Shown one piece after another: positions 983-18,228 of a stretch of DNA of 23,362 nt. The notes beneath the pieces were generated by a model that did no database searches, was not told the DNA's origin, and saw nothing but the letters and a program-made list of their open reading frames with translations. A program made the position numbers and the translations under genes. Source of the stretch: a virus; the IMG/VR virus record IMGVR_UViG_3300036985_007742, positions 1 to 23,362 of that record, one strand, 5' to 3'. The first letter of the stretch is position 1. Every line of letters starts with the position of its first letter.

Positions 983-1398
983 TGGCAATTTCAGCAAACG
1001 GTATTCGCATCCGCATTCCAGCGTTTCTGCTCGAGGCGAAGTGCGGACCGGGATGGATACCCATTCCGTCAACTGGCGTGCCTGAAGACGTGAGAGTTGT
1101 CCTGGCCAAGTACGCAGACAGCTGCAACGACGGGTACATTAACCCGACGGATGCACGTTTGGAAGTGAACGACAACACGTGGGAAGCAGTTCTAGCCGCA
1201 GCTCGGGTAAGCAGCAATGAGAACTTGGAGCGGTCGGCTAGGATGGGGTGCGAACACAAGCACGTCTGGGATAGCCACAGCGTCATAGATGGATATCTCG
1301 TATCCACGGTTACGTGCAGCACTTGCCACGCCATGGTGAGCTCCAAGAGGATACTGGCAAAGGAGACCAATGGGACAAGCATCGCAAACAAAGGCTGA
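982..1398 (+). CDS. Unknown protein with His/Cys cluster
   Basis: A 138-residue protein with no family I recognise. The C-terminal part has CEHKH and, about 25 residues later, CSTCH, together enough Cys and His to hold one metal ion. The N-terminal half looks like a compact domain (IRIRIPAFLLEAKCGPGW). It starts at the A of the preceding stop codon and its last 29 nt overlap the next gene, so translation of the three genes is probably coupled. It could be a small zinc-binding regulatory or accessory protein; that is inference. Confidence 0.7.
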   Translation: MAISANGIRIRIPAFLLEAKCGPGWIPIPSTGVPEDVRVVLAKYADSCNDGYINPTDARLEVNDNTWEAVLAAARVSSNENLERSARMGCEHKHVWDSHSVIDGYLVSTVTCSTCHAMVSSKRILAKETNGTSIANKG

Positions 1399-1786
1399 CC
1401 GAATCCACCGGACCAAGCTATTCGGAGGCCAGACGACGGCGCAAGACGTGTGGCGCAATCACGTTCTCGGCGCCCAGATGTGCAACAAGTGCAAGCAGCC
1501 CGCCGTCATGGAGGCTCACCTGTTCTGGCCCACCGAGGACTTCGAGAAGGACCAGCCGGCCCTCGCGGTGCAGATTGCTTCCGAACACCAGGGCGGTATT
1601 CCGTTTGTCCGCTTTCGCTCGGCCGGCAACGTCCAGCGAAACTTTGTCCATCTTCCGACCCTGTACGCATGCGGGGCGTGCTCGCCCGAGTTGGAGAGCA
1701 TGTGCGCCAAGCTGCCGAGCTACGTTGTGGCGGAGTTTCGCCGCGGGCCCGGGGCGGACAAGATTGTTGGGGCGGTGCCATCGTGA
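1370..1786 (+). CDS. Unknown protein with CxxC...CxxC zinc-finger-like motif
   Basis: A 138-residue protein with CNKC near residue 38 and CGAC near residue 102, plus HLFWP and SEHQGG segments between. The two Cys pairs flanking a hydrophobic stretch suggest a zinc-stabilised fold, the third such protein in a row in this operon. A clear ribosome-binding site (AAGGAG at 1360-1365) sits 4 nt before the ATG, which is why I accept the 29-nt overlap with the upstream gene. The stop overlaps the next GTG start (GTGA). The function is unknown. Confidence 0.7.
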   Translation: MGQASQTKADRIHRTKLFGGQTTAQDVWRNHVLGAQMCNKCKQPAVMEAHLFWPTEDFEKDQPALAVQIASEHQGGIPFVRFRSAGNVQRNFVHLPTLYACGACSPELESMCAKLPSYVVAEFRRGPGADKIVGAVPS

Positions 1787-2004
1787 GCGACCGATGGACG
1801 TACTCACTCCTCTTGGCGTTGTCCGCCGCATTGGACGTGCTCTTCATCCTGAAACGCAGCCACACGATCGACTGGTCGTGGTGGGTCGTCACGCTGCCTC
1901 TGACCGTCCCGGTGGGCATCGCGGTGGCCGCGCTGGCGCTTGTTGGCGCCGGCCAGCTGTACCGGACCTGGAAGGTCAACAAATCACTCGAGAGAGGGTG
2001 GTAG
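1783..2004 (+). CDS. Small membrane protein, two predicted transmembrane helices
   Basis: A 73-residue protein starting at a GTG that overlaps the upstream stop codon. Two hydrophobic stretches, roughly residues 7-23 (SLLLALSAALDVLFIL) and 34-58 (WWVVTLPLTVPVGIAVAALALVGAG), are separated by a short polar turn containing KRSHTIDW. The tail is basic (YRTWKVNKSLERGW). Size and topology resemble class II holins, but many small phage membrane proteins look like this and there is no endolysin next to it, so holin is only a possibility. Longer upstream readings of the frame lie inside the previous gene and are not credible. Confidence 0.65.
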   Translation: MSDRWTYSLLLALSAALDVLFILKRSHTIDWSWWVVTLPLTVPVGIAVAALALVGAGQLYRTWKVNKSLERGW

Positions 2005-2008
2005 GACT

Positions 2009-2230
2009 GTGAAGCACCCCGGGCCATGGACGGAAGATAGCAGCGGTGGAACAGTCGAAGCCAATGGGCAGGATGTCGCCTTCGACGAGACGCGGAGGTT
2101 GGTCATGGCGGCGCCTGAGCTGCTGGACCTGCTGACAAAGATGACGGAATACGCTGCCGACATGGAGTGGGTCGAGGAATCGCAACTCGTCAAGGATGCG
2201 CGTGCCCTCATCAAGCGCATCGAAGGATAA
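2009..2230 (+). CDS. Small phage protein of the AAPELL...ARALI type
   Basis: A 73-residue protein from a GTG start, preceded by the purine-rich AGAGAGGG (1991-1998). The first half contains WTEDSSGGTVEANGQDVAF, and the second half has RRLVMAAPELLDLLTKM followed by VKDARALIKRIEG. Short proteins with a conserved AAPELL segment and an ARALI...IEG tail are common in phages of GC-rich hosts; their function is not known. The last segment is strongly helical. The gene closes the first tight operon block: the next gene has its own upstream element. Confidence 0.7.
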   Translation: MKHPGPWTEDSSGGTVEANGQDVAFDETRRLVMAAPELLDLLTKMTEYAADMEWVEESQLVKDARALIKRIEG

Positions 2231-2259
2231 AACCAACGAAACCGGACAACAATAGAGCC
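2228..2259 (+). promoter_or_regulatory. Shared upstream element, copy 2
   Basis: TAAAAC (2228-2233), 9 nt, CGGACAACAATAG (2243-2255), 4 nt, then ATG at 2260. This is identical in both blocks and both spacings to the element at 222-253. The first T belongs to the TAA stop of the preceding gene. The flanking and spacer bases differ between the copies, so the blocks stand out as the conserved part. No Shine-Dalgarno sequence is present. Confidence 0.5.
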
Positions 2260-3696
2260 ATGACCAACTCGAAGAAGAAGTACACGCTCCTCCCAGAGCA
2301 CAAGGCGCGTTTCCCCGAATGGCAAAACAAATGGATCGCCAATGCGATGTCCACAAAGCCGATGGACGATGATGACCGCGCACAGATGAAAGCGGCAATC
2401 GTCGGGATGTATCAAGCTGCGGGGCTTGAGCCTCCGCCCGAACATCGGATCGTATTCGTGCCATCGCCATTCGTTGCGCGGTTTGCATCTGGGTTCGCAT
2501 CTTGGATCTGGCATCAGCGCGACGCCACCAGCGTCGCCACCCACGACGCCACCTACGGCGCCACCCGCGACGCCACCCGCGACGCCACCAGCGACGCCAC
2601 CGACGACGCCACCCACGTCGCCACCCGCGACGCCACCCACGTCGCCACCCGCGACGCCACCTACGGCGCCACCGACGACGCCACCCGCGACGCCACCAGC
2701 GACGCCACCAGCGACGCCACCGACGACGCCACCCACGTCGCCACCCGCGACGCCACCAGCGGCGCCACCCACGGCGCCACCTACGGCGCCACCGACGACG
2801 CCACCCACGTCGCCACCAGCGACGCCACCTACGGCGCCACCCGCGTCGCCACCCGCGACGCCACCTACGGCGCCACCGACGGCGCCACCGACGACGCCAC
2901 CCACGTCGCCACCAGCGACGCCACCTACGGCGCCACCCGCGTCGCCACCCGCGGCGCTAAGTGGTTCAGACTCGGAGGCTGCTCAGAACGTGACATGAGC
3001 GACCTCGCAGAACGGATTCTTCCAGGACATCGTCGCGGCATGCTCGAATGTGCCACAAAGGCATGGCGAATGGCCAATGGTGGAAATCAATGGTCGGGGT
3101 GGGTAGCATTTCTGAGTTTTTTTCGCTACGTCGCCGAACTGCCAATCGACTATTCCGCATGGGAACACTACGAAAAGGCCGCGGTGCACGCTGGCCCGAG
3201 ATACACACACGCCAAATTCTGCATTGTATCGGATCGCCCAGAAGTGCTTCTCGTCGATGAGCAGAACCGACCCCACTGCACTACTGGTCCGTTCTGTCGA
3301 TGGCGAGATGGCTCCGCGCTGTACGCAGTCCACGGGGTGCGCGTACCATGGACGGTAATCGAACAGCGGGATAAGATCACAGTGTCCCAAGTCGATGCGG
3401 AGCCAAATACGGAAGTGCGCAGGGTGATGCTTGAACTGTACGGGGAAGCCCGCTATCTGCAAGACAGCGGAGCGAAGCCAGTACACACGGACAGCTTCGG
3501 TACGCTCTACCGCAAGGAGATTCCTGGCGACGAGACGTTGGTGATGGTTCGGGTGCTGAACTCGACGTCAGAACCTGACGGGTCGTTTAAGCCATATTTT
3601 CTAAGAGTACCGCCGACAATCAAGACGGCACACGAGGCCGTTGCTTGGAGTTTCGGCGTAGAAGCCAAGGACTACAAACCGCAGATCGAAAGCTAG
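2260..3696 (+). CDS. DUF6745-like protein with an N-terminal 36-unit tetrapeptide repeat
   Basis: A 478-residue protein. Residues 1-87 form a charged N-terminal region. Residues 88-231 are 36 perfect-length copies of [DVG]-A-T-[SHYRD]. Residues 232-478 match my memory of the DUF6745 family, with hallmark segments YSAWEHYEKAAVHAGPR, FCIVSDRPEVLLVD, NRPHCTTGPFCRWRDGSALY, VRRVMLELYG and YRKEIPGDETLVMVRVLNST. The role of this family is unknown. The ATG at 2260 follows a shared upstream element; an in-frame ATG at 2167 lies inside the previous gene. The gene following it is the usual partner of this family. The repeat may form a regular, solvent-exposed array, but no function can be claimed. Confidence 0.85.
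   Translation: MTNSKKKYTLLPEHKARFPEWQNKWIANAMSTKPMDDDDRAQMKAAIVGMYQAAGLEPPPEHRIVFVPSPFVARFASGFASWIWHQRDATSVATHDATYGATRDATRDATSDATDDATHVATRDATHVATRDATYGATDDATRDATSDATSDATDDATHVATRDATSGATHGATYGATDDATHVATSDATYGATRVATRDATYGATDGATDDATHVATSDATYGATRVATRGAKWFRLGGCSERDMSDLAERILPGHRRGMLECATKAWRMANGGNQWSGWVAFLSFFRYVAELPIDYSAWEHYEKAAVHAGPRYTHAKFCIVSDRPEVLLVDEQNRPHCTTGPFCRWRDGSALYAVHGVRVPWTVIEQRDKITVSQVDAEPNTEVRRVMLELYGEARYLQDSGAKPVHTDSFGTLYRKEIPGDETLVMVRVLNSTSEPDGSFKPYFLRVPPTIKTAHEAVAWSFGVEAKDYKPQIES
2521..2952 (+). repeat. 36 x 12-bp coding tandem repeat
   Basis: Thirty-six uninterrupted 12-bp units of the form GNC-GCC-ACC-NNC. The first codon is GAC, GTC or GGC; the fourth is AGC, CAC, TAC, CGC or GAC; the middle GCC and ACC codons never change. 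All variation therefore changes the protein and none is synonymous. A TAC fourth codon is always followed by GGC. A degenerate 37th unit (GGC GCT AAG) ends the array. Confidence 0.95.
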
Positions 3697-3704
3697 GAGA
3701 CCAA

Positions 3705-4022
3705 ATGAAGAAGACCATGTTCCGACAAGGGGATGTTCTGATCACGTCAGTCAAGAGAGTCAATGGGTTGAGCGAGGTCGCACGCGAGTCCGGGCGGATT
3801 GTTCTGGCTCACGGAGAAGCCACAGGGCACGCGCATGCTATCGCATCGATGGATGCGATGCTGCTCATGGACGAGAAGATGCTCAACCGATATCTCGACG
3901 TGAAGGCAATGGTCGTTCTCGACCATGAGGAGCACACCCGACTCGAGCTGCCCAGAGGATTCTACGAGGTGAAACGGCAGCGGGAGTACAGGCCCGAGGG
4001 GCTGCGTCAGGTCGCGGACTAG
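3705..4022 (+). CDS. Small partner protein of the DUF6745-like gene
   Basis: A 105-residue protein with the recognisable pattern FRQGDVLI near the start, GRIVLAHGEATGHAHAI in the middle, and VLDHEEHTRLELPRGFYEV plus KRQREYRPEGLRQVAD at the end. In bacterial genomes I recall proteins of this pattern directly beside DUF6745 proteins; the biochemical role of the pair is not known. AGGAGA at 3695-3700 is a good ribosome-binding site 4 nt before the ATG. The HGEATGHAHAI segment has several conserved His that could bind metal, which is inference. Confidence 0.75.
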   Translation: MKKTMFRQGDVLITSVKRVNGLSEVARESGRIVLAHGEATGHAHAIASMDAMLLMDEKMLNRYLDVKAMVVLDHEEHTRLELPRGFYEVKRQREYRPEGLRQVAD

Positions 4023-6707: not shown

Positions 6708-7931
6708 CTAGAGCCCGCCGAACATCGAGTAGTCCCGAAACGCCCTGCCCAGCATTCTACGTGTGAGCGCCGGAGCCGCATCGAGGAAGCCCTTTCCAGA
6801 GGTCAGGTGTAGGAGCGACGTGAAGTAGTCCTCATATGCCGCGCCGACGATCTCGAATGTGTTGTTCCGCTCCACCCACTGGCGGCAGACATTCGGATCG
6901 ATCGGGGGGACACCGGGCGTCTGCCCGAGCAGGTTGCGAGCCGCCCAGACCGACTCCTCGAACGTGTTGACCCGCCAGCCGGTGTAGCCGTGCACCACGG
7001 TGTCGGTGTAGCCGCCCAGGTCGGTCGAGATGACCGGGCAGCCAGACGCTGCAGCTTCAATCGCCACGGCACCCAGGGGCTCGACGTAGCGGCTCAGGCT
7101 GAACAGGCCCTTCGCCTTCTGCATGAGCTCGCGGCGGACCTTGGCGGAGGTCATGCCGATGTGTTTGCAGCCTTCCGGCCATTCCGCGACGAAGCTGGAG
7201 GCGTCACCGCGGCCGGTGAGAAAGATCGGAGTCTTGAGCTCGCGTGCGACTTGGATCGCCCATCGGACGCCCTTCGGTTCAAGCATGCGGGTCTGGACCA
7301 TGAAGAAGTTCAGCTTCTCGGCCGTGGACAAAGCCGGTCCGAACAAGTCGAGGTTGAGCGGCAGCGGAATGACCTGGCGCCACCACTTGTCGCCGCCGTA
7401 GTTCTGCTCGATGCCCTCATGAAAATGCCGCCAGGAATGCGACAGGTACACCCGGAATACCGCGTGCGCGTAGGGCGACCCGATGCCGCACTCGACGACG
7501 ATTTGCGGGACGTCCTTCACGCAGCCCTGATGCCCCCACAGGCAGGCGACGATTGAAGAGTAGGGCGCACCACCGCGCTCGAGCAGAATCTTCTTCACGT
7601 TCTCTTCGTACATATCCCACTGCTTGGAGTAGGCGTGCTCACGGCAGAGGATGAACGGGGCCTCTGGCTTCTTCCAGCCGTACAGGATGTCCCACCACTC
7701 CTGCGGCATGGCGTCGATGTGCTCGACTCCATCGGGCGGCTGGCTTCCGGGCATGCCGATGTGGATGACCTCGTGCGAGGGCTTGCCGTCCGGGTCACGG
7801 CGGTCGGCCATCATCTTGGCGAAATACCATGTCTGCTCTGTGAACGGGCACAGGTTGACGAGGTTCTCATCGCGTGGGTCAGTGGTCTGAGTGTGTGGAA
7901 ATCCGAGCACCAGGATGCGCATGGTTGACAT
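6708..7931 (-). CDS. GT4-type glycosyltransferase (GT-B fold)
   Basis: A 407-residue minus-strand protein. The start region MRILVLGFPHTQTTD fits the first beta strand of a GT-B Rossmann domain. The C-terminal domain has LNFFMVQTRMLEPKG, FSLSRYVEPLGAVAIEAAASG and CPVISTDLGGYTDTVVHGYTGW, with the EX7E pair at Glu284 and Glu292 that marks retaining GT4 enzymes using nucleotide sugars. Family knowledge says such enzymes add a sugar to a glycan or protein in the cytoplasm. Divergent placement beside a GDP-heptose cassette suggests GDP-heptose as donor, which is inference. Starts at 7931, 7922 (MRIL) and 7961 are all possible; I chose 7931 as a compromise, with GGAG 13 nt upstream. The gene runs opposite to all flanking head genes. 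Confidence 0.85.
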   Translation of the reverse strand: MSTMRILVLGFPHTQTTDPRDENLVNLCPFTEQTWYFAKMMADRRDPDGKPSHEVIHIGMPGSQPPDGVEHIDAMPQEWWDILYGWKKPEAPFILCREHAYSKQWDMYEENVKKILLERGGAPYSSIVACLWGHQGCVKDVPQIVVECGIGSPYAHAVFRVYLSHSWRHFHEGIEQNYGGDKWWRQVIPLPLNLDLFGPALSTAEKLNFFMVQTRMLEPKGVRWAIQVARELKTPIFLTGRGDASSFVAEWPEGCKHIGMTSAKVRRELMQKAKGLFSLSRYVEPLGAVAIEAAASGCPVISTDLGGYTDTVVHGYTGWRVNTFEESVWAARNLLGQTPGVPPIDPNVCRQWVERNNTFEIVGAAYEDYFTSLLHLTSGKGFLDAAPALTRRMLGRAFRDYSMFGGL

Positions 7932-7959: not shown

Positions 7960-8661
7960 ATGAAACTACCACCGGTGGCAATTCTCGCGGGAGGTCTGGC
8001 GACCCGGCTGCGGCCGATCTCCGAGACGGTACCGAAGTCCCTGCTGAACGTGCGGGGGAAACCGTTCATCGAGCATCAGCTTCGGATGCTGCACTCGCGG
8101 GGCATCACCGAGGTCGTGTTGTGCGTGGGGCATCTTGGCTGGCAGATCGAAGAGGCCATCGGGAATGGGGCGGATCTCGGTTTGCGAGTGCGCTACTCGC
8201 ACGACGGGGAATATCCGCTCGGCACAGGCGGGGCCGTCTGCCGAGCGTTGGACTTGCTCGGAGAGGAATTCTTTGTCATGTACGGTGATTCCTACCTGAC
8301 GTGTGACTACGAGGCCGTGTACCGCAGCTTCCAGGCCGCGGGTAAGCCGGCATTGATGACGGTCTACCAAAACGACGGCAAGTTTGACGAAAGCAACGTG
8401 GAATTCGAAGGCGGGGCGATTCGGCGCTACTTCAAGCCAGGCGGAGCCCCTGAGATGCGGCACATCGACTACGGCCTTGGCGTGTTCCGGCGTGAGGCCT
8501 TCGGCGGAGTGCTGAACAGGGAGCGGCTGGCGCTGGCCGATGTCTATCATAGCCTGCTTGAGCGGGGTCGGCTCGCGGCCCACGAAGTGCACGAGCGCTT
8601 CTATGAGATCGGGTCCATCGCCGGGCTCGTAGAGTTCCGTGCATTGGAGGCGTTGCCATGA
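7960..8661 (+). CDS. hddC: D-glycero-alpha-D-manno-heptose-1-phosphate guanylyltransferase-like nucleotidyltransferase
   Basis: A 233-residue sugar-phosphate nucleotidyltransferase. The N-terminus shows the signature AGGLATRLRPISETVPKSLL, which binds the nucleotide and metal. YPLGTGGAV, FFVMYGDSYL (metal-binding Asp), FDESNVEF and FYEIGSIAGL are further conserved segments, and the length fits the HddC group. The family activates heptose-1-phosphate with GTP to give GDP-heptose. The base and sugar cannot be proven from sequence, but the neighbouring HddA-, GmhA- and GmhB-like genes make GDP-D-glycero-alpha-D-manno-heptose the best reading. Alternative: a mannose- or glucose-1-phosphate transferase. 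It is the first gene after the cassette promoter and lacks a ribosome-binding site. Confidence 0.8.
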   Translation: MKLPPVAILAGGLATRLRPISETVPKSLLNVRGKPFIEHQLRMLHSRGITEVVLCVGHLGWQIEEAIGNGADLGLRVRYSHDGEYPLGTGGAVCRALDLLGEEFFVMYGDSYLTCDYEAVYRSFQAAGKPALMTVYQNDGKFDESNVEFEGGAIRRYFKPGGAPEMRHIDYGLGVFRREAFGGVLNRERLALADVYHSLLERGRLAAHEVHERFYEIGSIAGLVEFRALEALP

Positions 8662-8686
8662 AGACCGGCGCCACGGAGGGCGCGCG

Positions 8687-8884
8687 ATGAAGACTACCAA
8701 GCAATGGACCGTTTCGCGTGATTCGTCCGGGTTCCCGGCGGCGATCTGCCTAGATGGCTGTCCGATGATTGAGTTGCAACTCGGGTCGCAGATAACCGCC
8801 CTGAATATTGGGGCTATTTTGAGGTTGATCAATGCAGCGTGGAACCTGCCGGCGCGTGCGGCGAAGTCAAAGAGGGCGAAGTGA
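8687..8884 (+). CDS. Small unknown protein inside the heptose cassette
   Basis: A 65-residue protein with GGAGGG 6 nt before its ATG. It contains WTVSRDSSGFPAAICLDGC, then MIELQLGSQITALNIGAILRLINAAWNL and a basic tail (ARAAKSKRAK). I recognise no enzyme motif. Its stop overlaps the next ATG (TGATG). Its place inside the sugar operon does not prove a sugar-related role: the style resembles small phage genes elsewhere in the window, so it may be a native phage gene trapped in the cassette. Confidence 0.6.
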   Translation: MKTTKQWTVSRDSSGFPAAICLDGCPMIELQLGSQITALNIGAILRLINAAWNLPARAAKSKRAK

Positions 8885-9285
8885 TGACCGCTATCCAGCT
8901 TCGAGACATGCTCGTCCGCTACTGCGACCTGCACTCTCGCGACGCCGAAACGTGCCGCGTGGTAATCCAAGAGTCTCGCAGCGGGTGCCCTCACGCGCCG
9001 ATGGTTGACGTTCAGTCTGCTGGCCCCGGTGCTGACTGGACGCGCGGGATGTTCATCCTGCGCCCCGACGAGCCGCTTGTGCGAGTGCGAATTCTCTCCA
9101 GACCAAAGGAAACCCTGGCTAGGATTCGACTGGCGCAAATCAAGGAAGCTCACGCGCGAACGGGTTTCGAGTACATCAAGAAAGTGCGCGAGTACGAGTG
9201 GATTGAAGGGTTCAAGCGCGGCGTTGAGGAGCACATCACGTCTGCACTGGAAGACATCAAGCAAAAAGGAGCAGTGAGCCTATGA
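8884..9285 (+). CDS. Unknown protein inside the heptose cassette
   Basis: A 133-residue protein overlapping the previous stop and, by 4 nt (ATGA), the isomerase gene. The N-terminal half has RDMLVRYCDLHSRDAETCRV and SGCPHAPMVDV; the C-terminal half is a long charged helix (EAHARTGFEYIKKVREYEW and FKRGVEEHITSALEDIKQK). No enzyme signature is visible. A role in the pathway, in coupling translation or as an unrelated phage protein are all open. Confidence 0.6.
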   Translation: MTAIQLRDMLVRYCDLHSRDAETCRVVIQESRSGCPHAPMVDVQSAGPGADWTRGMFILRPDEPLVRVRILSRPKETLARIRLAQIKEAHARTGFEYIKKVREYEWIEGFKRGVEEHITSALEDIKQKGAVSL

Positions 9286-9878
9286 CGTTTGTCGGGAAGT
9301 TTCTCAACGAGGTGGTCGACGTGGCCATGGCAATTGATGAGGGGCCGATTGAATCCATGGTAGATGCGCTCGCGGCTGTTCGTACTCAGGGCGGACGGCT
9401 GTTCATCCTCGGAATTGGCGGGAGCGCGGCCAACGCCTCACACGCTGTGAATGACTTCCGCAAACTGGCGGGGATCGAAGCCTACGCTCCCACGGACAAT
9501 GTGAGCGAGCTGACGGCCCATACGAACGACACAGGATGGGCGAGCGTTTTTGCTGAATGGTTTAATGTCAGCCGGCTACAGACGAAAGACGCAGTTCTCG
9601 TTCTTTCGGTTGGGGGAGGTGATATCGACAGGAATGTGAGCGCGAATCTGGCGCTTGCAGTTGAATACGCCAAGCACTCCGGAGCGACCACGCTCGGCAT
9701 TGTCGGGCGCGACGGGGGATACACAGCCAGGTGCGCCGACGTGTGCGTCCTGGTGCCCACGGTGAACCCGGACCACGTCACCCCCCTGACCGAAGCGTTC
9801 CAGTCGGTTGTGTTGCACCTGCTGGTGACGCACCCGAAGCTGAAACAATGCGACGCCAAGTGGGAAAGCCAGCGATGA
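9282..9878 (+). CDS. gmhA: Sedoheptulose-7-phosphate isomerase-like SIS protein
   Basis: A 198-residue SIS-domain protein. Motifs in order are FILGIGGSAANASHAVNDFRK, ELTAHTNDTGWASVFAEW, LSVGGGDIDRNVS, LGIVGRDGGYTA and PLTEAFQSVVLHLLVTHPKL. GmhA converts sedoheptulose 7-phosphate to D-glycero-D-manno-heptose 7-phosphate in the cytoplasm. The NDFRKLAG segment after the phosphate loop differs from the AEELTG of E. coli GmhA and resembles the SIS proteins I recall beside hddA and hddC in GDP-heptose clusters. AAGGA about 12 nt upstream could serve as ribosome-binding site. Alternative: another sugar-phosphate isomerase of the SIS family. Confidence 0.8.
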   Translation: MTFVGKFLNEVVDVAMAIDEGPIESMVDALAAVRTQGGRLFILGIGGSAANASHAVNDFRKLAGIEAYAPTDNVSELTAHTNDTGWASVFAEWFNVSRLQTKDAVLVLSVGGGDIDRNVSANLALAVEYAKHSGATTLGIVGRDGGYTARCADVCVLVPTVNPDHVTPLTEAFQSVVLHLLVTHPKLKQCDAKWESQR

Positions 9879-10396
9879 GCGGACGGCCGGCGTTGTTCCT
9901 CGACCGCGACGGCGTTGTGTTCCGCGCCCTGGTCAGGGATGGCAAGCCGTACTGCGCGCAATCCGTGGCCGAACTCACGATGCTACCCGGAGTTGTAGAT
10001 GCGCTGCAAAAGACGAGAACACTCGGGATGTTGAACATCGTCGTTACCAATCAGCCCGACGTCGCACGCGGGACGCTCGCGCGAGAGGTAGTGGAGCACA
10101 TGCACGCGATAATGCGACTGGTGCTGCCGATCGACGACGTGATGGTCTGCTACCACGACGATGCCGATGGGTGCGCCTGTCGCAAGCCGAAGCCCGGAAT
10201 GCTATTGGAGGCGGCGCAGCGGCACGGCGTAGACCTGGCTAGGAGCTACATGGTGGGAGATAGGTGGCGCGACGTTGAAGCCGGTCGAGCCGCTGGCTGC
10301 GTGGCCATTTGGATGCCCGGGAACTATGGTGAAACGGCGCCACGCGGGCCGGTCATCACCTGCCACAGTTTGCTCGATGCTGTAGATTGGATGTGA
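9875..10396 (+). CDS. gmhB: D-glycero-D-manno-heptose 1,7-bisphosphate phosphatase-like HAD protein
   Basis: A 173-residue HAD-IIIA phosphatase. LFLDRDGVV holds the nucleophile Asp10 and acid Asp12; VVTNQPDVARG is motif II; CRKPKPGML supplies the Lys; YMVGDRWRDVEAG gives motif IV Asp. Cys92, His94, Cys100 and Cys102 form the zinc loop of the GmhB/HisB branch. GmhB removes the 7-phosphate of heptose 1,7-bisphosphate. The zinc-loop spacing is the short form also seen in the histidinol-phosphatase half of HisB, so sequence alone leaves both open; the context favours heptose. I chose the ATG at 9875 (ATGA overlap); an in-frame ATG at 9848 would add nine residues. Confidence 0.78.
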   Translation: MSGRPALFLDRDGVVFRALVRDGKPYCAQSVAELTMLPGVVDALQKTRTLGMLNIVVTNQPDVARGTLAREVVEHMHAIMRLVLPIDDVMVCYHDDADGCACRKPKPGMLLEAAQRHGVDLARSYMVGDRWRDVEAGRAAGCVAIWMPGNYGETAPRGPVITCHSLLDAVDWM

Positions 10397-10403
10397 TGAG
10401 ATC

Positions 10404-11147
10404 ATGAAAAAGAGAACGCCCATGATACCCACTCTGGAATCTCTCAAGATCAAGATATTCGCCGACGGCGCCGACCTCAAGACCATGGGGAATCTGTACG
10501 ACATTTTCGTGATCAAGGGATTCACCACGAACCCGTCGCTCATGCGCAAAGATGGCGTGACCGACTACGAACAGTGGGCGCGGAAGGTGCTTCGGGTGTG
10601 TCCCGGCTTGCCCGTATCGTTCGAAGTGCTGGCAGACGATCTTGATGGGATGGAGCGCCAGGCCCGCAAGATTTCGGCCTGGGGCAAGAATGTCTATGTG
10701 AAGATCCCAATCACGAACACCGAGGGCGCCTCGACGGGGCCCATCATCCGGAGGCTGTCGTGCGATGGAATCAAGCTCAACGTCACGGGTTTGACCACGT
10801 TCGGCCAGGTTGTAGACGCGGGCAGCGCTTTGTCCTATGCGAATGCGGCCGATGCCATCGTGTCGGTATTCGCAGGGAGAATCGCGGACACGGGGAGAGA
10901 CCCAGCGGGGGTTTTGGCTTCGGCCGCATTGGCGTTACGATCTCTGCCCAACGTCGAGTTGCTCTGGGCCAGTACGCGCGAGCTGCTCAACATCTTCCAG
11001 GCGGACGCCGTCGGCTGCCACATCATCACAGTCACGCCCGACATCCTCCGCAAGCTACCTCTCGTGGGCAAGGACTTGTCGGAGTATTCCCTGGAGACCG
11101 TGCGGATGTTCCGCGACGATGCAGTGAAAGCCGGGTACACGCTGTGA
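10404..11147 (+). CDS. Transaldolase (small TalC-like type)
   Basis: A 247-residue class I aldolase of the short transaldolase/fructose-6-phosphate aldolase group. IFADGADLKTM holds the conserved Asp, GFTTNPSLM is the second signature, and Lys100 in VYVKIPITN is the Schiff-base lysine. The two positions that separate the branches are Glu74 (SFEV) and Phe156 (SVFAGRI), both the transaldolase form; fructose-6-phosphate aldolases have Gln and Tyr. The enzyme would interconvert fructose 6-phosphate plus erythrose 4-phosphate with sedoheptulose 7-phosphate plus glyceraldehyde 3-phosphate. This supplies the substrate of the isomerase two genes upstream. A second start at 10422 is possible. The stop overlaps the next GTG start. 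Confidence 0.85.
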   Translation: MKKRTPMIPTLESLKIKIFADGADLKTMGNLYDIFVIKGFTTNPSLMRKDGVTDYEQWARKVLRVCPGLPVSFEVLADDLDGMERQARKISAWGKNVYVKIPITNTEGASTGPIIRRLSCDGIKLNVTGLTTFGQVVDAGSALSYANAADAIVSVFAGRIADTGRDPAGVLASAALALRSLPNVELLWASTRELLNIFQADAVGCHIITVTPDILRKLPLVGKDLSEYSLETVRMFRDDAVKAGYTL

Positions 11148-12124
11148 TCATCGTCAGAAGCCCCCTTCGGATCACCCTCGGTGGTGGCGGCACGGACCTG
11201 CCATCGTACTACCGGCAGCACTGCGGCTCGTTGATTGCGGCCACGATCGACAAGTACGTCTACGTCTCGGTCATGCAACCGTTCCGCGACGGTATCTACC
11301 TGAAGTATTCCGATATCGAGCACGTGGACCAGATCAAAGATGTTCAGCACCCAATCGTCCGCGCGGCACTCGGTTTGCTCATGCCGGAGCCGTGCAACGT
11401 CGAGCTCGTCTCGCTGGCGGACGTCCCGGCGGGGACCGGGCTCGGGTCATCGGGAACCTTCACCGTCGCGCTGGTGAAGGCCCTGAGTGCGTTCCAGCGG
11501 AAGCACATCACAGCCGAGGCAGCGGCCAAGATGGCGTGCAAGATCGAGATCGACCTTCTCGCCACGGCCGTCGGCAAGCAAGATCAGTACGCTGCGGCCT
11601 ACGGGGGCATCTCAAAGTACGAGTTCCACTCGGACGAGAGCGTTCATGTGCGCCCGCTCGGTCTGAGCAGTCAGACATTGCATGACCTCGAGGACCGCTT
11701 GGCGCTCTTCTTCACCGGGTACGTTCACAGCGCGAGCGAGATTCTGAAAGACCAGAACGTTCGCACCCAGACGGGCGACGCCTCCATGATCGAGAACCTG
11801 CATCGGGTGAAGCAGCTTGGAGTTGCTACCGCAACCGCACTCGAGGCCGGCAGGACAGAGGAGTTCGGCGAGATCCTTCACGAGCAGTGGGGATTCAAGA
11901 AGAGTCGTGTCGCCGGCGCCTCGAATCCACAGATTGACGAGTGGTACGAGCTTGCGCGAAAGAACGGCGCCACCGGGGGTAAGCTGGTGGGCGCGGGGGC
12001 CGGCGGGTTCCTGCTCTGCTACGCCAAGGACCGGAGAAAGCTGGCGGTTGCCATGGAGGCAGCCGGCCTGAAGGAGCTTCGGTTCCGTTTCGACTTCGAT
12101 GGAGCAAGGACGGTGATGCAATGA
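11144..12124 (+). CDS. hddA: D-glycero-alpha-D-manno-heptose-7-phosphate kinase-like GHMP kinase
   Basis: A 326-residue GHMP kinase beginning at GTG (GTGA overlap with the transaldolase). The N-terminus IIVRSPLRITLGGGGTDLP is characteristic of HddA-type kinases; PAGTGLGSSGTFTVALVKAL is the ATP-binding loop; VGKQDQYAAAYGG and KLVGAGAGGFLLCY are further GHMP motifs. HddA phosphorylates D-glycero-D-manno-heptose 7-phosphate at C1 (alpha) to the 1,7-bisphosphate. Length matches the family. Starts further upstream lie inside the transaldolase gene. Fucokinase-type relatives are an alternative, but the full set of heptose partners favours HddA. Confidence 0.85.
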   Translation: MIIVRSPLRITLGGGGTDLPSYYRQHCGSLIAATIDKYVYVSVMQPFRDGIYLKYSDIEHVDQIKDVQHPIVRAALGLLMPEPCNVELVSLADVPAGTGLGSSGTFTVALVKALSAFQRKHITAEAAAKMACKIEIDLLATAVGKQDQYAAAYGGISKYEFHSDESVHVRPLGLSSQTLHDLEDRLALFFTGYVHSASEILKDQNVRTQTGDASMIENLHRVKQLGVATATALEAGRTEEFGEILHEQWGFKKSRVAGASNPQIDEWYELARKNGATGGKLVGAGAGGFLLCYAKDRRKLAVAMEAAGLKELRFRFDFDGARTVMQ

Positions 12125-12828
12125 TCGTTCACACCCCTGGAATCATCCCCGGCAAGAAAGGTGAGCAGCAGATCGCAATCCTGCAGGACGACACACACCT
12201 GTCCCGCTGGATAGAGCAGTACCATTGCCTGGGGGCTGACATCACGAAGTTGATTCCGCTCGTGCTCGACTTGATACCACCGGGCTCGGTCGTCATCGAC
12301 GCCGGTGCATCCTTGGGCGACCACACGGCGGCCTATGCGACGAAGGCAGGAACGGTGCATGCCTTCGAGCCGCAGCCGGAGTCGTTCGAATGCCTCCGGC
12401 AGAACTGCAATGGCTTGGACAACATCGTGCTGCACAACTGCGGGCTGTCCGACCGCGCTGCAGCGCTGAGCATGCGACGCGATCCGAACGTCGGAGCCAG
12501 CAACATCGACGCCAAGGGCGGCGTGCTCGTCGATGTTGTGACCCTCGATAGCCTGCGACTGTCGCCCGCGCTCATCAAGTGGGATGTCGAGGGCCACGAG
12601 GTGCGGGCCCTGCGGGGCGCACGCGGAACTCTCATGCGATGCCGACCCATCATGGTCATCGAGGTGAACTCGGGCGGCCTTCAGCTGGCTGGCTTCACGA
12701 TGCGCGACTTGGAAACCGAGCTGCGCTGGCTCGGCTATGCTGATTCGAGGGACATCCGCACGGGGCAGGCGTTCGACCCGAACGACGGGCGCGACGGGTA
12801 CGACATCGTCTGCCGGGCGACAGCGTAG
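12121..12828 (+). CDS. FkbM-family SAM-dependent methyltransferase
   Basis: A 235-residue methyltransferase. VVIDAGASLGDHTAAYA is the SAM-binding motif I, VHAFEPQPESFECLRQN is motif II with its acidic residue, and LIKWDVEGHEVRALRGA plus RPIMVIEVNSGG are typical FkbM segments. FkbM enzymes methylate hydroxyl groups on sugars and polyketides. As last gene of the cassette (ATGA overlap with the kinase), it probably O-methylates the heptose or the glycan that carries it, which is inference. It ends 13 nt from the convergent stop of the minus-strand operon, leaving no room for a normal terminator. Confidence 0.8.
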   Translation: MIVHTPGIIPGKKGEQQIAILQDDTHLSRWIEQYHCLGADITKLIPLVLDLIPPGSVVIDAGASLGDHTAAYATKAGTVHAFEPQPESFECLRQNCNGLDNIVLHNCGLSDRAAALSMRRDPNVGASNIDAKGGVLVDVVTLDSLRLSPALIKWDVEGHEVRALRGARGTLMRCRPIMVIEVNSGGLQLAGFTMRDLETELRWLGYADSRDIRTGQAFDPNDGRDGYDIVCRATA

Positions 12829-12841
12829 TTTTCTGCCGAGA

Positions 12842-13261
12842 CTACCTCCTCGACTTTCGGGGCATGTTCTGGCACCGCGAGGCTAACTTCGGCCATCTTC
12901 GCTTTGCACGACGGACCAGTGCGAGCTTGTTCTCGACAGTGAAAGCTCGAACAAAGCGCTGTGAGGCCAAAACCTCGTCAGTAAGATGGAACAGCTCTGG
13001 GTGGTCGAGGAGCAGGCTTTTGAAGAAGTCCTCTGCGTCTACGCCGACTGGCCATCTGTCTTCGAGTCGAACACGTGCGTCGATAAACATATCGATTGCG
13101 TAGCTGGGATCTCGTATCCCCAATTTCGCTGCGACTTCGGTTATGTGCAACTTGGCTACTAGTGGGCGGAGATTCCAATCGATCGCGTGTTGGAGCTTCA
13201 TCGCCATCTCTCGGCGAATGGAACCGAGTTTAGATTGCAGGTCTGTGTCTGGCTTCTTCAT
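12842..13261 (-). CDS. Unknown protein sharing the scaffold protein's C-terminal domain
   Basis: A 139-residue minus-strand protein. Residues 37-91 align without any gap to residues 165-219 of the scaffold-like protein at 15907-16767, with 13 identities including the shared G-x-x-D-x-x-YAI block, D-x-E-x-FF-x-x-L and H-x-x-x-F, plus many conservative changes. The rest is basic, especially the C-terminus (ALVRRAKRRWPKLASR and MPRKSRR). The start at 13261 overlaps the stop of the upstream helix-turn-helix gene (ATGA). A protein carrying only the scaffold domain could compete with or tune capsid assembly. Alternatively the domain is a general oligomerisation or DNA-related module. The function is not established. 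Confidence 0.6.
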   Translation of the reverse strand: MKKPDTDLQSKLGSIRREMAMKLQHAIDWNLRPLVAKLHITEVAAKLGIRDPSYAIDMFIDARVRLEDRWPVGVDAEDFFKSLLLDHPELFHLTDEVLASQRFVRAFTVENKLALVRRAKRRWPKLASRCQNMPRKSRR

Positions 13262-13452
13262 GAGTTCTTCCCCTCCGGCGCGTCCGGCTCCACGACCTTG
13301 ATGCCCGCCGCAGCGAGCGCCTTCTCGATGCGTTCCTTGACCGCGCCCCGTATTTCGTCGCCATCGCAGAATTTCTGAACAGTTCGCGGGTCTGCATCCG
13401 ACGAGCCTGCAATTCTGATAACGACGTGCCGGGGTAGACGTTTGGTTCGCAT
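13258..13452 (-). CDS. Small helix-turn-helix DNA-binding protein
   Basis: A 64-residue minus-strand protein. Residues 17-51 have the form SSDADPRTVQKFCDGDEIRG followed by AVKERIEKALAAAGI, the pattern of short LacI/MerR-style helix-turn-helix proteins in which DPRTV begins the recognition unit. Phages use such proteins as small repressors or activators. It is the first gene of a two-gene minus-strand operon facing away from the head genes that start at 13542. The 89-nt gap between them is the natural place for it to bind. No strong promoter or ribosome-binding site is seen in front of it. Confidence 0.6.
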   Translation of the reverse strand: MRTKRLPRHVVIRIAGSSDADPRTVQKFCDGDEIRGAVKERIEKALAAAGIKVVEPDAPEGKNS

Positions 13453-13508
13453 GGTGGATACATCGTGCGCCTTTCATGCGGCCCACGTCAAGCGCGCCTT
13501 GCGGCGTT

Positions 13509-13540
13509 GTCGTGTTTCGGCGACCTTGAGATCACACGAC
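13509..13540. promoter_or_regulatory. Inverted repeat in the divergent intergenic region, possible operator
   Basis: GTCGTGT (13509-13515) and ACACGAC (13534-13540) are perfect 7-bp complements around 18 nt, ending one base before the ATG at 13542. The repeat occupies the place of the ribosome-binding site of the + strand head operon and the upstream region of the helix-turn-helix gene. It may be an operator or a hairpin limiting translation; both are inference. Confidence 0.35.
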
Positions 13541-13541
13541 C

Positions 13542-14081
13542 ATGACCAGCGCTGTAAACCCCAAGCATCTGCAATCGTTGCTCCAGAAGTCCCAGACCGA
13601 GCTCGAAGACGAGCCGGGAGACGAGGAGGACGCGGCTGCCGACGGCGAAGCCGAAGAGCCAGGCGACGAGAGCGGGGACGAAGGCGACGAGCAGGAAGAG
13701 CACACCGTCGAGTCCATGACGGAGGCGCTCAAGCCCGCGGTCGCGACGCTGAACGAGATCATCGACGAATTCCGCACCGGCTCCGATGCCCAGCCCAAGG
13801 CGGGCGTCGAGCAGTTGGAGGAGACCGAAGGCGTCGAGTCGGAGAAGGTACATGCTTTCTGCGACTGGACCGAAGAGGCCGGCAAGAAGGACTTCCGCGC
13901 ACTCGGCGAAGCGCTCGAGCTCGAAGACGTCGATGGTTTTGTCGGCTGGTGCCGGGCCGTCCGCAAGATGAAGGAAGACGGCGGAGAGGGCGAAAGCTCT
14001 GGCGAGGAAGAGGCAGGCGGAGAGGGCGAGGAGCCGCCGTATGCCGAGACCGAAACCGATGAGGAGCCCGAAGGCGAGTAA
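13542..14081 (+). CDS. Highly acidic protein, possible head assembly factor
   Basis: A 179-residue protein dominated by Glu, Asp and Gly at both ends (DEEDAAADGEAEEPGDESGD and EEEAGGEGEEPPYAETET). A more ordered middle lies at roughly residues 55-140 (VESMTEALKPAVATLNEIID and ALGEALELEDVDGFVGWCR). The charge would make it strongly DNA-avoiding or suited to bind basic partners. Its place at the start of the capsid operon suggests a head assembly or internal protein, but no family is recognised. The stop overlaps the next ATG (TAATG). Confidence 0.65.
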   Translation: MTSAVNPKHLQSLLQKSQTELEDEPGDEEDAAADGEAEEPGDESGDEGDEQEEHTVESMTEALKPAVATLNEIIDEFRTGSDAQPKAGVEQLEETEGVESEKVHAFCDWTEEAGKKDFRALGEALELEDVDGFVGWCRAVRKMKEDGGEGESSGEEEAGGEGEEPPYAETETDEEPEGE

Positions 14082-15906: not shown

Positions 15907-16767
15907 ATGCCCGACCCAATCACCCAAGATCCGAATCAACCACCGTCCCAGTCCGAAGTGCAACAAAGCACGCTCCCACCTGCGGGAGATCAGCAGAACG
16001 CACCCCGAAGCAAGACCGTCATGATCCCAGATATCGCCCTCAGGCAACGGCTCGACCAGGCGAAGAAGAGCGGTCGTACTGCCTACCAGGCAGAACTTGA
16101 TACGCAAGCCCAGACCAAAGGCTTTGCGAATCACGCCGCCATGATGGCCCACGTCGACGGCATTCTGACAAGGCCAAAACCCCAGCAGACGCAGCAAGCG
16201 CCGCGTCCAGCCACCAGCCAAGCATCGTCCGAGGCTCCGCCTACTCCGCCGAAGAACCGCAATGACCGCCAGGCCATGGCGCAATTCGAACGAGACAGGG
16301 CGAAGTTTCAGCGAGCGCAGGAGCAGTCGGAAGCTCGTCTTCGTGACGAGCAGAAGCGTCGGCGTAGAGCCGAACGCGAGAGGGACGCCATTCAGGTCCG
16401 TTCTGCGCTCGAGCGAATTGCCGTAGGTGTTGGCGTCAAGGATACCGACTACGCAATCACCCTCTATGAACGGCACTGCCAAGGGAAAACCGAGGAAGAG
16501 CTGGGCAAGATGGATGAAGAGGCGTTCTTCAGTGGCTTGAGGAAGAGCCATGGATACATCTTCGGGGAGACGGTCGTGCCAGCCACGACTGGAACTGCCG
16601 GGGCTGTTCCAGGAGCTCACACTCCGCCATCGACGGCGGGGACCGCTGCTGCCGCGGGACAAGCCGGGGTCGTGGACGTGAACAAGATGAACAAGCAGCA
16701 GTACCGCGAGTACAAGCAAGCGCAGCCTTGGTCGCGGCCTACGGCAACCGCAGGCAGAGCAAGCTAG
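15907..16767 (+). CDS. Capsid scaffold-like protein
   Basis: A 286-residue protein directly before the major capsid gene, the standard place for a scaffold. The N-terminus is Pro/Gln-rich. Residues about 118-165 form a highly charged coiled coil (AQFERDRAKFQRAQEQSEAR, then KRRRRAERERD). Residues 165-219 form a compact domain (GVKDTDYAITLYERH and DEEAFFSGLRKSHGYIFGE) of the kind seen at the end of phage scaffold proteins. A low-complexity Ala/Thr/Pro linker and a basic C-terminus (NKMNKQQYREYKQAQPW) end it. Scaffolds guide coat assembly and then leave or are degraded. GAGGAG lies 7 nt before the ATG. The compact domain is also present in the minus-strand protein at 12842-13261. Confidence 0.75.
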   Translation: MPDPITQDPNQPPSQSEVQQSTLPPAGDQQNAPRSKTVMIPDIALRQRLDQAKKSGRTAYQAELDTQAQTKGFANHAAMMAHVDGILTRPKPQQTQQAPRPATSQASSEAPPTPPKNRNDRQAMAQFERDRAKFQRAQEQSEARLRDEQKRRRRAERERDAIQVRSALERIAVGVGVKDTDYAITLYERHCQGKTEEELGKMDEEAFFSGLRKSHGYIFGETVVPATTGTAGAVPGAHTPPSTAGTAAAAGQAGVVDVNKMNKQQYREYKQAQPWSRPTATAGRAS

Positions 16768-16812: not shown

Positions 16813-18228
16813 ATGGACTTCTCAGTCATCCAGCAGTCTCCGCAAGTACGATCTCTCGTACAGCAGAACGTTTTGCAACGCGAGTTCAAGGACGCCCTTT
16901 ACCCGCGCAACCTGTTCCGAGGCGAAGCGGAGCCGGTCGAATGGCCCGCCAACGTCGGCGACAGCATGGTGTTCACCGGGCGTGGGCTCATGAAGCCGAG
17001 CATGAAGCCGCTCAGGCCGGGCGATGAGCCCAAGGCCAAGACGGTCGAATACGAACAATGGGCGTCCCAGCTTCATCAGTGGGTCGGTCGTGCTCCCGAC
17101 ATCTCCACCGTGACGGACCTCGTGGCGATTGCCCGTCTGTTCGTCAGCAACATGCAAGCGCTCGGTCTCGATGCCGGCATGTCGCTCAACCGCATCGTTC
17201 GCGACCGCATCTACAATGCGGCCATGAGCGGTCAGACGGTGGCGACGGTCACGGCGACCTCGGGCAGCACGATCACCGTCGCGCGTCTAAACGGATTCAC
17301 CACGGCGCGGCGGCCCGACCTGTCGACCGGGTCCGCGGTCAGGTTCGACACGGTGTCGTCCAGCAACCCGCTGATCGCGTACACCAAGAACGGCAGCGGC
17401 GCCACGCTGAAGCTGACGATCACGGGGTTCACCCCGACCTACGCAGGCGACGAGACTGGGCCCGGAACCCTGACGGTGGCGGAGACCCTCAGCGGATCCA
17501 ACGTCACCGCACGGGATCCGGTCTGGACCGCGGACTCGAGCTACATCAACCGCGCCGGCGGCGGCTTGACCGTCGATGCTGTCACGGGATCCAGTGACAC
17601 GTTCACGTTCGACCTGTTCCGCTCAAGCGTGGGACACATGGCCGACAACAACGTGCCGAAGTTCCAAGACGGCTTCTACCATTCGCACTTCAACAACTAC
17701 TCGAAGGGGCAGTTGTTCGCCAGCGACGAGAGCCAGCGTTTGCTGACCTCCTTGCCGGACTACTACTGGTACAAGGAGTTCACGATGGGCGAGGTGCTCG
17801 GCTGCCTCGTGTTCGAGGACACCGAGACGCCAGTGTCGAGCAACGTGATCGGCGGATCGCAGAACATCTACGACGGTTCCGACACCGGCGAGGCGTTCGG
17901 CGGTGAGCTGTGGAACGCCACCGGCGACCAGATCCAACGCCCGATCTTCATCGGTGCCGAAGCGGTGTACGAATACTACCGGCCACTCGGTGGACTCGTG
18001 ACCGAAGCAGGCGTGAACGGCCAAGTCGGCGAGTTCACCAACCTGACCAACAACGGCATCGAGGTGAACGTGGACCGCGTGCAGGTCTACCTCCGCGCCC
18101 CGGTCAACGTCACCGGCGACATCGTGACATCGGTCTGGAAGTCGGTCATGGACTGGCCTTGCAGAACCGACATCCTCACGGGCGATTCCGCGCGGTTCAA
18201 GCGAGCTGTGGCCGTGGAGCACGTGTAG
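16813..18228 (+). CDS. Major capsid protein (N4 gp56-like)
   Basis: A 471-residue coat protein. The N-terminus LVQQNVLQREFKDALYPRNL and EWPANVGDSMVFTGRGLM, followed by KPLRPGDEPKAKTVEYEQW, fits the N4-gp56-like capsid group with an HK97-type fold. Residues about 155-265 are Thr/Ser/Gly-rich beta-type sequence, probably an inserted surface domain. The C-terminal half has conserved-looking blocks (FQDGFYHSHFNNYSKGQLFA and GAEAVYEYYRPLGG, then VYLRAPVNVTGDI). AGAGGA about 7 nt before the ATG is a good ribosome-binding site. This is the largest head gene and directly follows the scaffold. The Thr/Ser-rich insert would be a candidate target if the heptose pathway decorates the virion, which is inference. 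Confidence 0.85.
   Translation: MDFSVIQQSPQVRSLVQQNVLQREFKDALYPRNLFRGEAEPVEWPANVGDSMVFTGRGLMKPSMKPLRPGDEPKAKTVEYEQWASQLHQWVGRAPDISTVTDLVAIARLFVSNMQALGLDAGMSLNRIVRDRIYNAAMSGQTVATVTATSGSTITVARLNGFTTARRPDLSTGSAVRFDTVSSSNPLIAYTKNGSGATLKLTITGFTPTYAGDETGPGTLTVAETLSGSNVTARDPVWTADSSYINRAGGGLTVDAVTGSSDTFTFDLFRSSVGHMADNNVPKFQDGFYHSHFNNYSKGQLFASDESQRLLTSLPDYYWYKEFTMGEVLGCLVFEDTETPVSSNVIGGSQNIYDGSDTGEAFGGELWNATGDQIQRPIFIGAEAVYEYYRPLGGLVTEAGVNGQVGEFTNLTNNGIEVNVDRVQVYLRAPVNVTGDIVTSVWKSVMDWPCRTDILTGDSARFKRAVAVEHV

Follow-up and report, generated by a model that had tools for sequence, protein, structure and literature searches.

A small minus-strand phage gene encodes a predicted, divergent scaffold-type domain

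A two-gene operon opposes the head genes

The DNA analysed here (the window) comprises positions 1 to 23,362 of IMG/VR virus record IMGVR_UViG_3300036985_007742, from an uncultured phage. Flanked on one side by a gene for an FkbM-type methyltransferase and on the other by the head genes, which begin at position 13542, a two-gene operon occupies the minus strand of the window. The second cistron (12842..13261) encodes a protein of 139 aa and runs from an ATG at 13261 to a stop codon at 12842-12844, with a Shine-Dalgarno-like GGAGGGG at 13276-13270, 8 nt 5' of the ATG. Its base composition is coding-like (GC1/GC2/GC3 = 0.60/0.39/0.62), and none of the other five frames is open across the gene. 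The GC3 of 0.62 is the lowest among the 31 window genes listed, which fits a later acquisition.

The first cistron (13258..13452, minus strand) encodes a 64-aa protein and overlaps the 139-aa gene by ATGA. This short protein looks HTH-like by eye, with a LacI-type signature, and we regard it as a putative DNA-binding regulator; Pfam and PDB searches gave no support for the HTH identity. A divergent intergenic region of 89 bp (13453..13541), in which no sigma-70-like site was found, separates the minus-strand operon from the plus-strand head genes. The original prediction of a free-standing domain made from a separate, opposing operon was borne out in the form of this minus-strand two-gene unit, led by a short putative DNA-binding protein.

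On the plus strand, the gene for a 286-aa scaffold-like protein (15907..16767) immediately precedes that for the major capsid protein (16813..18228; phrog_1357, E 1.3e-7). Over 97-98%, this capsid protein shares 24-26% identity with those of Streptomyces phage Kromp and Komagataeibacter phages. The scaffold-like protein matches PF06810 at E 2.3e-4, which is under the curated cut-off, while the scaffold of a related phage, L004, reaches E 3.2e-8 and 34.2 bits against a cut-off of 35. The head scaffolding family phrog_2303 was matched by six of the seven members of our scaffold alignment, with a best E of 2e-6. Judged by these profiles, the protein is a scaffold of the PF06810/phrog_2303 type, weakly so when taken alone and better through its relatives. 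Near its C-terminus lies a conserved tail (VDVNKMNKQQYREYKQ, 16672..16719, plus strand), defined from the scaffold alignment, which by analogy with phage 80alpha would touch the capsid protein. The 139-aa gene is found 2.6 kb ahead of the scaffold gene and on the other strand, and does not share the scaffold's place in the head operon next to the major capsid gene.

The small protein and the scaffold share a domain

The 139-aa protein consists of a helical lead-in, a domain shared with the scaffold (residues 34-92; 12986..13162, minus strand) and a strongly basic tail of 47 residues, in which residues 93-139 include 14 K/R versus 3 D/E. Searches of PHROG, Pfam, NCBIfam and PADLOC returned no match for it and the PDB held no relative, and the PF06810 model did not match it at E values up to 1. 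A single-sequence AlphaFold2 model (pLDDT 45.9, pTM 0.25) was too poor for fold comparison.

The similarity had been described as a gapless alignment of residues 37-91 with residues 165-219 of the scaffold, with 13 identities, and we reproduced this alignment exactly (24 positives, BLOSUM62 sum 47). Among 331 window ORFs, the phage's own scaffold was the best match of the small protein, with a Smith-Waterman score of 53 versus 39 for the next; when each protein was shuffled 5000 times, 1 shuffle of the scaffold and 13 of the small protein attained a score of 53. Low pairwise identity, together with a BLASTP E value for the pair alone of only 2e-4, would be compatible with a chance resemblance. 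Profile comparison, which the original prediction had named as its check, was significant: hhalign matched the 139-aa protein to the seven-scaffold alignment with P 6.5e-8 (94.6%) and to a deeper alignment of ten scaffolds of the lineage with P 6.1e-9 (95.9%). These matches spanned 58-59 columns and placed the matching domain at residues 162-220 of the scaffold (16390..16566, plus strand). In controls, 300 shuffled versions of the small protein reached P 0.021 at best, its reversed sequence gave 0.24, and three neighbouring proteins gave 0.15 to 0.86.

Since our first set of relatives had been chosen with an alignment that contained the 139-aa protein, and might therefore be biased, a second set of phage records was fetched with the scaffold alignment alone, using scaffold-only patterns from which the small protein was left out. 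In 8 of the 12 newly searched records, the 139-aa protein matched a single place, and that place was the scaffold gene (E 2.8e-8 to 6.6e-7, 22-26 bits). Because the profile tests and the records chosen without the small protein gave the same outcome, and shuffled sequences did no better than 0.021, we rejected chance similarity, which we consider extremely improbable, and conclude from these comparisons that the domain homology is real. In phmmer searches, the small protein scored 17.6-21.5 bits against three sister scaffolds and 7.6 bits against its own. The PF06810 scaffolds of five other phages did not match it (negative phmmer bits), which indicates that the 139-aa protein belongs with this phage lineage.

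The domain is a divergent branch rather than a copy

The original prediction held that the small protein carries a copy of the scaffold's C-terminal domain. While the homology stood, the term copy did not, as the two domains are only 23% identical; similarly, the shared part is not the very C-terminus of the scaffold but the domain that precedes its actual C-terminal tail. The same 23% rules out a recent duplication of the phage's own scaffold. By comparison, the domain of the 139-aa protein is 33-35% identical to the scaffolds of L004 and the L044 group. The scaffolds of L053 and L054 (26% identity, lower score) are as far from it as its own scaffold is, and in this domain most pairs of lineage scaffolds share 50-67% identity. 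With 23% identity to its own scaffold versus 33-35% to several sister scaffolds, the 139-aa protein is best described, on sequence grounds, as a separate, divergent branch of the lineage's scaffold-domain family. In a domain tree, it was not nested inside the lineage and sat on a long branch, in a topology that was poorly resolved and misplaced an outgroup.

At the conserved positions of the domain, the 139-aa protein keeps 11 of 15 hydrophobic residues and 2 of 9 polar ones, and it has no counterpart of either the scaffold's conserved N-terminal region or its conserved C-terminal tail. The loss of the conserved polar residues argues for a surface that is probably altered and, combined with the missing tail, would weaken the case for simple mimicry of the scaffold by the small protein.

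Such divergence could also mark a fragment of another scaffold gene that recombination left behind and that is now drifting without function. The long branch, the lost polar residues, the lowest GC3 of the window genes listed and the lack of a second example would all fit such a remnant; however, the frame of 139 codons is intact, it has a good Shine-Dalgarno sequence and a start overlap, its base composition is coding-like, and the hydrophobic core has been kept. We therefore give this explanation little credence.

The gene looks like cargo in a variable slot

In related phages, other short minus-strand genes with differing followers occupy this slot, which lies just ahead of the homologue of the gene at 13542 and is oriented away from it. 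The slot contains a gene with a weak HTH_7-like match (E 0.0018) in L054 (4124-4336, minus strand), an HTH_17 gene with a CHC2 zinc-finger gene behind it in L005 (2100-2779, minus strand), an ORF of 90 codons followed by a methyltransferase gene in the L044 group (4393-4665 in L044, minus strand), and an ORF of 131 codons in L011 (4792-5187, minus strand); no slot gene was recognised in L004. The 139-aa protein is absent from 23 related phage records, and a relative of the 64-aa protein occurs among them only in L012, a record with other head genes. There, the relative (59-65% identical) is followed by a different gene, again with an ATGA overlap. Because the slot carries other minus-strand genes and other second cistrons in related phages, the 139-aa gene looks like accessory cargo in a variable slot whose first gene encodes a small, putatively DNA-binding protein.

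Searches of IMG/VR viral contigs, GTDB genomes, and phage and plasmid collections, with a reach of close relatives or motif matches, yielded no second stand-alone relative of the 139-aa protein. A weak minus-strand match in L054/L055 (10.9 bits) was dismissed because it runs antisense to a large restriction/methylase-like gene. In L054, positions 1356-4007, inside the head-gene region, encode an 883-aa protein that by eye has the look of a fused restriction/methylase (type I R/M-like). L044 additionally carries, at 3017-3646 on the minus strand, a gene whose product has an HTH_3-like start and a match to sigma-70 region 4 (E 4.8e-14), possibly a phage sigma-like regulator.

If a scaffold domain had been captured long ago, it might now serve a non-assembly role, for instance as a basic, nucleic-acid-binding partner of the 64-aa protein or as its co-regulator. 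Consistent with such a recycled fold, the hydrophobic core is kept while the conserved polar surface is lost, the C-terminal tail is strongly basic, the 139-aa gene is translationally coupled to a putative regulator, and in L012 the regulator's relative has another gene as its coupled second cistron. On the other hand, the second cistron varies between phages, so the 64-aa and 139-aa proteins need not act together, and the 139-aa protein is still recognisably closest to the scaffolds of its own lineage. We regard this explanation as possible, if on the unlikely side.

A possible action on capsid assembly

The reading that we favour, tentatively and with somewhat less than even confidence, is that the 139-aa protein is a cargo-encoded, divergent scaffold-domain protein that changes or blocks scaffold-driven capsid assembly. 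It would associate with the scaffold protein by means of the helical domain that the two have in common, together with the helix preceding that domain; the scaffold itself is the likelier partner because the small protein lacks the tail. Without the scaffold's N-terminal part and C-terminal tail, the 139-aa protein could then cap, dilute or retune scaffold assemblies, and the altered assemblies would lead to capsid assembly being changed or blocked. The 64-aa protein, product of the first cistron, may control its expression separately from that of the late head genes. In favour of a role in assembly are the homology, established by profiles and by unbiased retrieval, the confinement of the similarity to the lineage, the separate operon with its Shine-Dalgarno sequence and ATGA overlap, and the precedent of the small scaffold homologues CpmB and Rcm, which act on assembly. 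Against it, the domain retains few of the conserved polar residues (2 of 9), there is no counterpart of the tail presumed to contact the capsid, and the protein is known from a single instance.

An effect on assembly could be directed at the phage's own capsids or at those of other phages. The gene shares a genome with the head genes, adjoins them and is transcribed divergently from them, as might be expected if its product slowed or timed assembly of the phage's own capsid or switched capsid size, with expression ahead of, or separate from, that of the late head genes. This arrangement appears quite unlikely to us, however, as the match to its own scaffold (23%) is weaker than that to several sister scaffolds (33-35%), and related phages do without the 139-aa gene, whose product is therefore no core factor of assembly. 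Given that several sister scaffolds are closer to the small protein than its own scaffold is, a somewhat more natural target than its own phage might be a related phage that has infected the same cell, although the scaffolds of L053 and L054 are as distant as its own, so the likeness is no rule. No tyrosine integrase was found in eight records of the lineage; expression from a prophage can therefore not be assumed, and protection of a lysogen is doubtful. The more specific proposal, that a phage rather than a satellite uses a detached and diverged scaffold domain, under its own regulated operon, against the capsid assembly of related phages in a shared host, we consider unlikely.

Small proteins related to phage scaffolds are best known from satellites. 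CpmB of SaPI1, a satellite gene product of 72 residues, competes with the 80alpha scaffold gp46 for the capsid protein and causes small capsids to be made, as established by cryo-EM and genetics (PMC5644958). It shares with gp46 a C-terminal RIIK helix-and-hook that binds the capsid protein (PMC5644958). Like CpmB, the 139-aa protein is a small, separate protein with a segment in common with a phage scaffold. CpmB acts through the tail, whereas the 139-aa protein shares the domain before the tail, lacks the tail and is encoded by a phage; 80alpha gp46 also belongs to a different Pfam family, PF14265. The scaffold-like Rcm of SaPIpT1028 binds the major capsid protein of phi7206 and redirects capsid size; that it competes with the putative phi7206 scaffold has been proposed from homology and AlphaFold models (PMC12409344). 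Rcm, however, is the product of a satellite gene with an experimental phenotype, while the 139-aa protein is the product of a phage gene known here from sequence alone.

A capsid-redirecting protein of the CpmB/Rcm type would be encoded by a satellite without head genes of its own, whereas the present record carries both scaffold and major capsid genes; it would also share the capsid-binding segment of the scaffold, whereas the 139-aa protein has no counterpart of the presumed capsid-binding tail. Within PF06810, the parent scaffold is a weak match and the shared domain corresponds to the C-terminal half of the family, but the 139-aa protein has no PF06810 match and is without the rest of the scaffold architecture. 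Overlapping scaffold genes, such as C and Nu3 of phage lambda, likewise yield a free-standing scaffold segment from within one phage genome. In that case, though, the segment is encoded in frame within a single gene of the late operon, while here a separate, divergent gene lies on the other strand.

The earlier statement that no example of this arrangement had been described needs narrowing, since CpmB and Rcm are precedents; it holds to the extent that both are satellite and not phage genes. In the literature on phage-encoded scaffold interference, we found nothing closer than these satellite systems. The unusual part is thus the presence of a small scaffold homologue inside a phage's own genome, small scaffold homologues of satellites being already known. 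If the 139-aa protein does act on assembly, the use of stand-alone scaffold domains as weapons or regulators would extend from satellites to phages themselves, and to a stage of the life cycle for which few conflicts between phages are known; the protein would also show which part of this scaffold type works without the tail.

Other genes of the window

Positions 7960-12124 of the window hold a cassette that resembles nucleotide-heptose synthesis, with genes for a nucleotidyltransferase, a SIS-domain protein (GmhA-like), a HAD phosphatase (GmhB-like), a transaldolase and a GHMP kinase, and the FkbM methyltransferase gene comes after it. In L011, the flanking glycosyltransferase and FkbM genes are present without the heptose-like cassette. 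The glycosyltransferase gene lies on the minus strand in all phages compared, while the strand of the FkbM gene varies, being plus in the window, L005 and L011 and minus in the L044 group (glycosyltransferase and FkbM genes at 6708-7910 and 12121-12828 of the window and at 1554-2825 and 3692-4396 of L044). At 2254-3696, the window encodes a DUF6745 protein (PF20530, E 3.8e-53) with long DAT/VAT tandem repeats before the domain.
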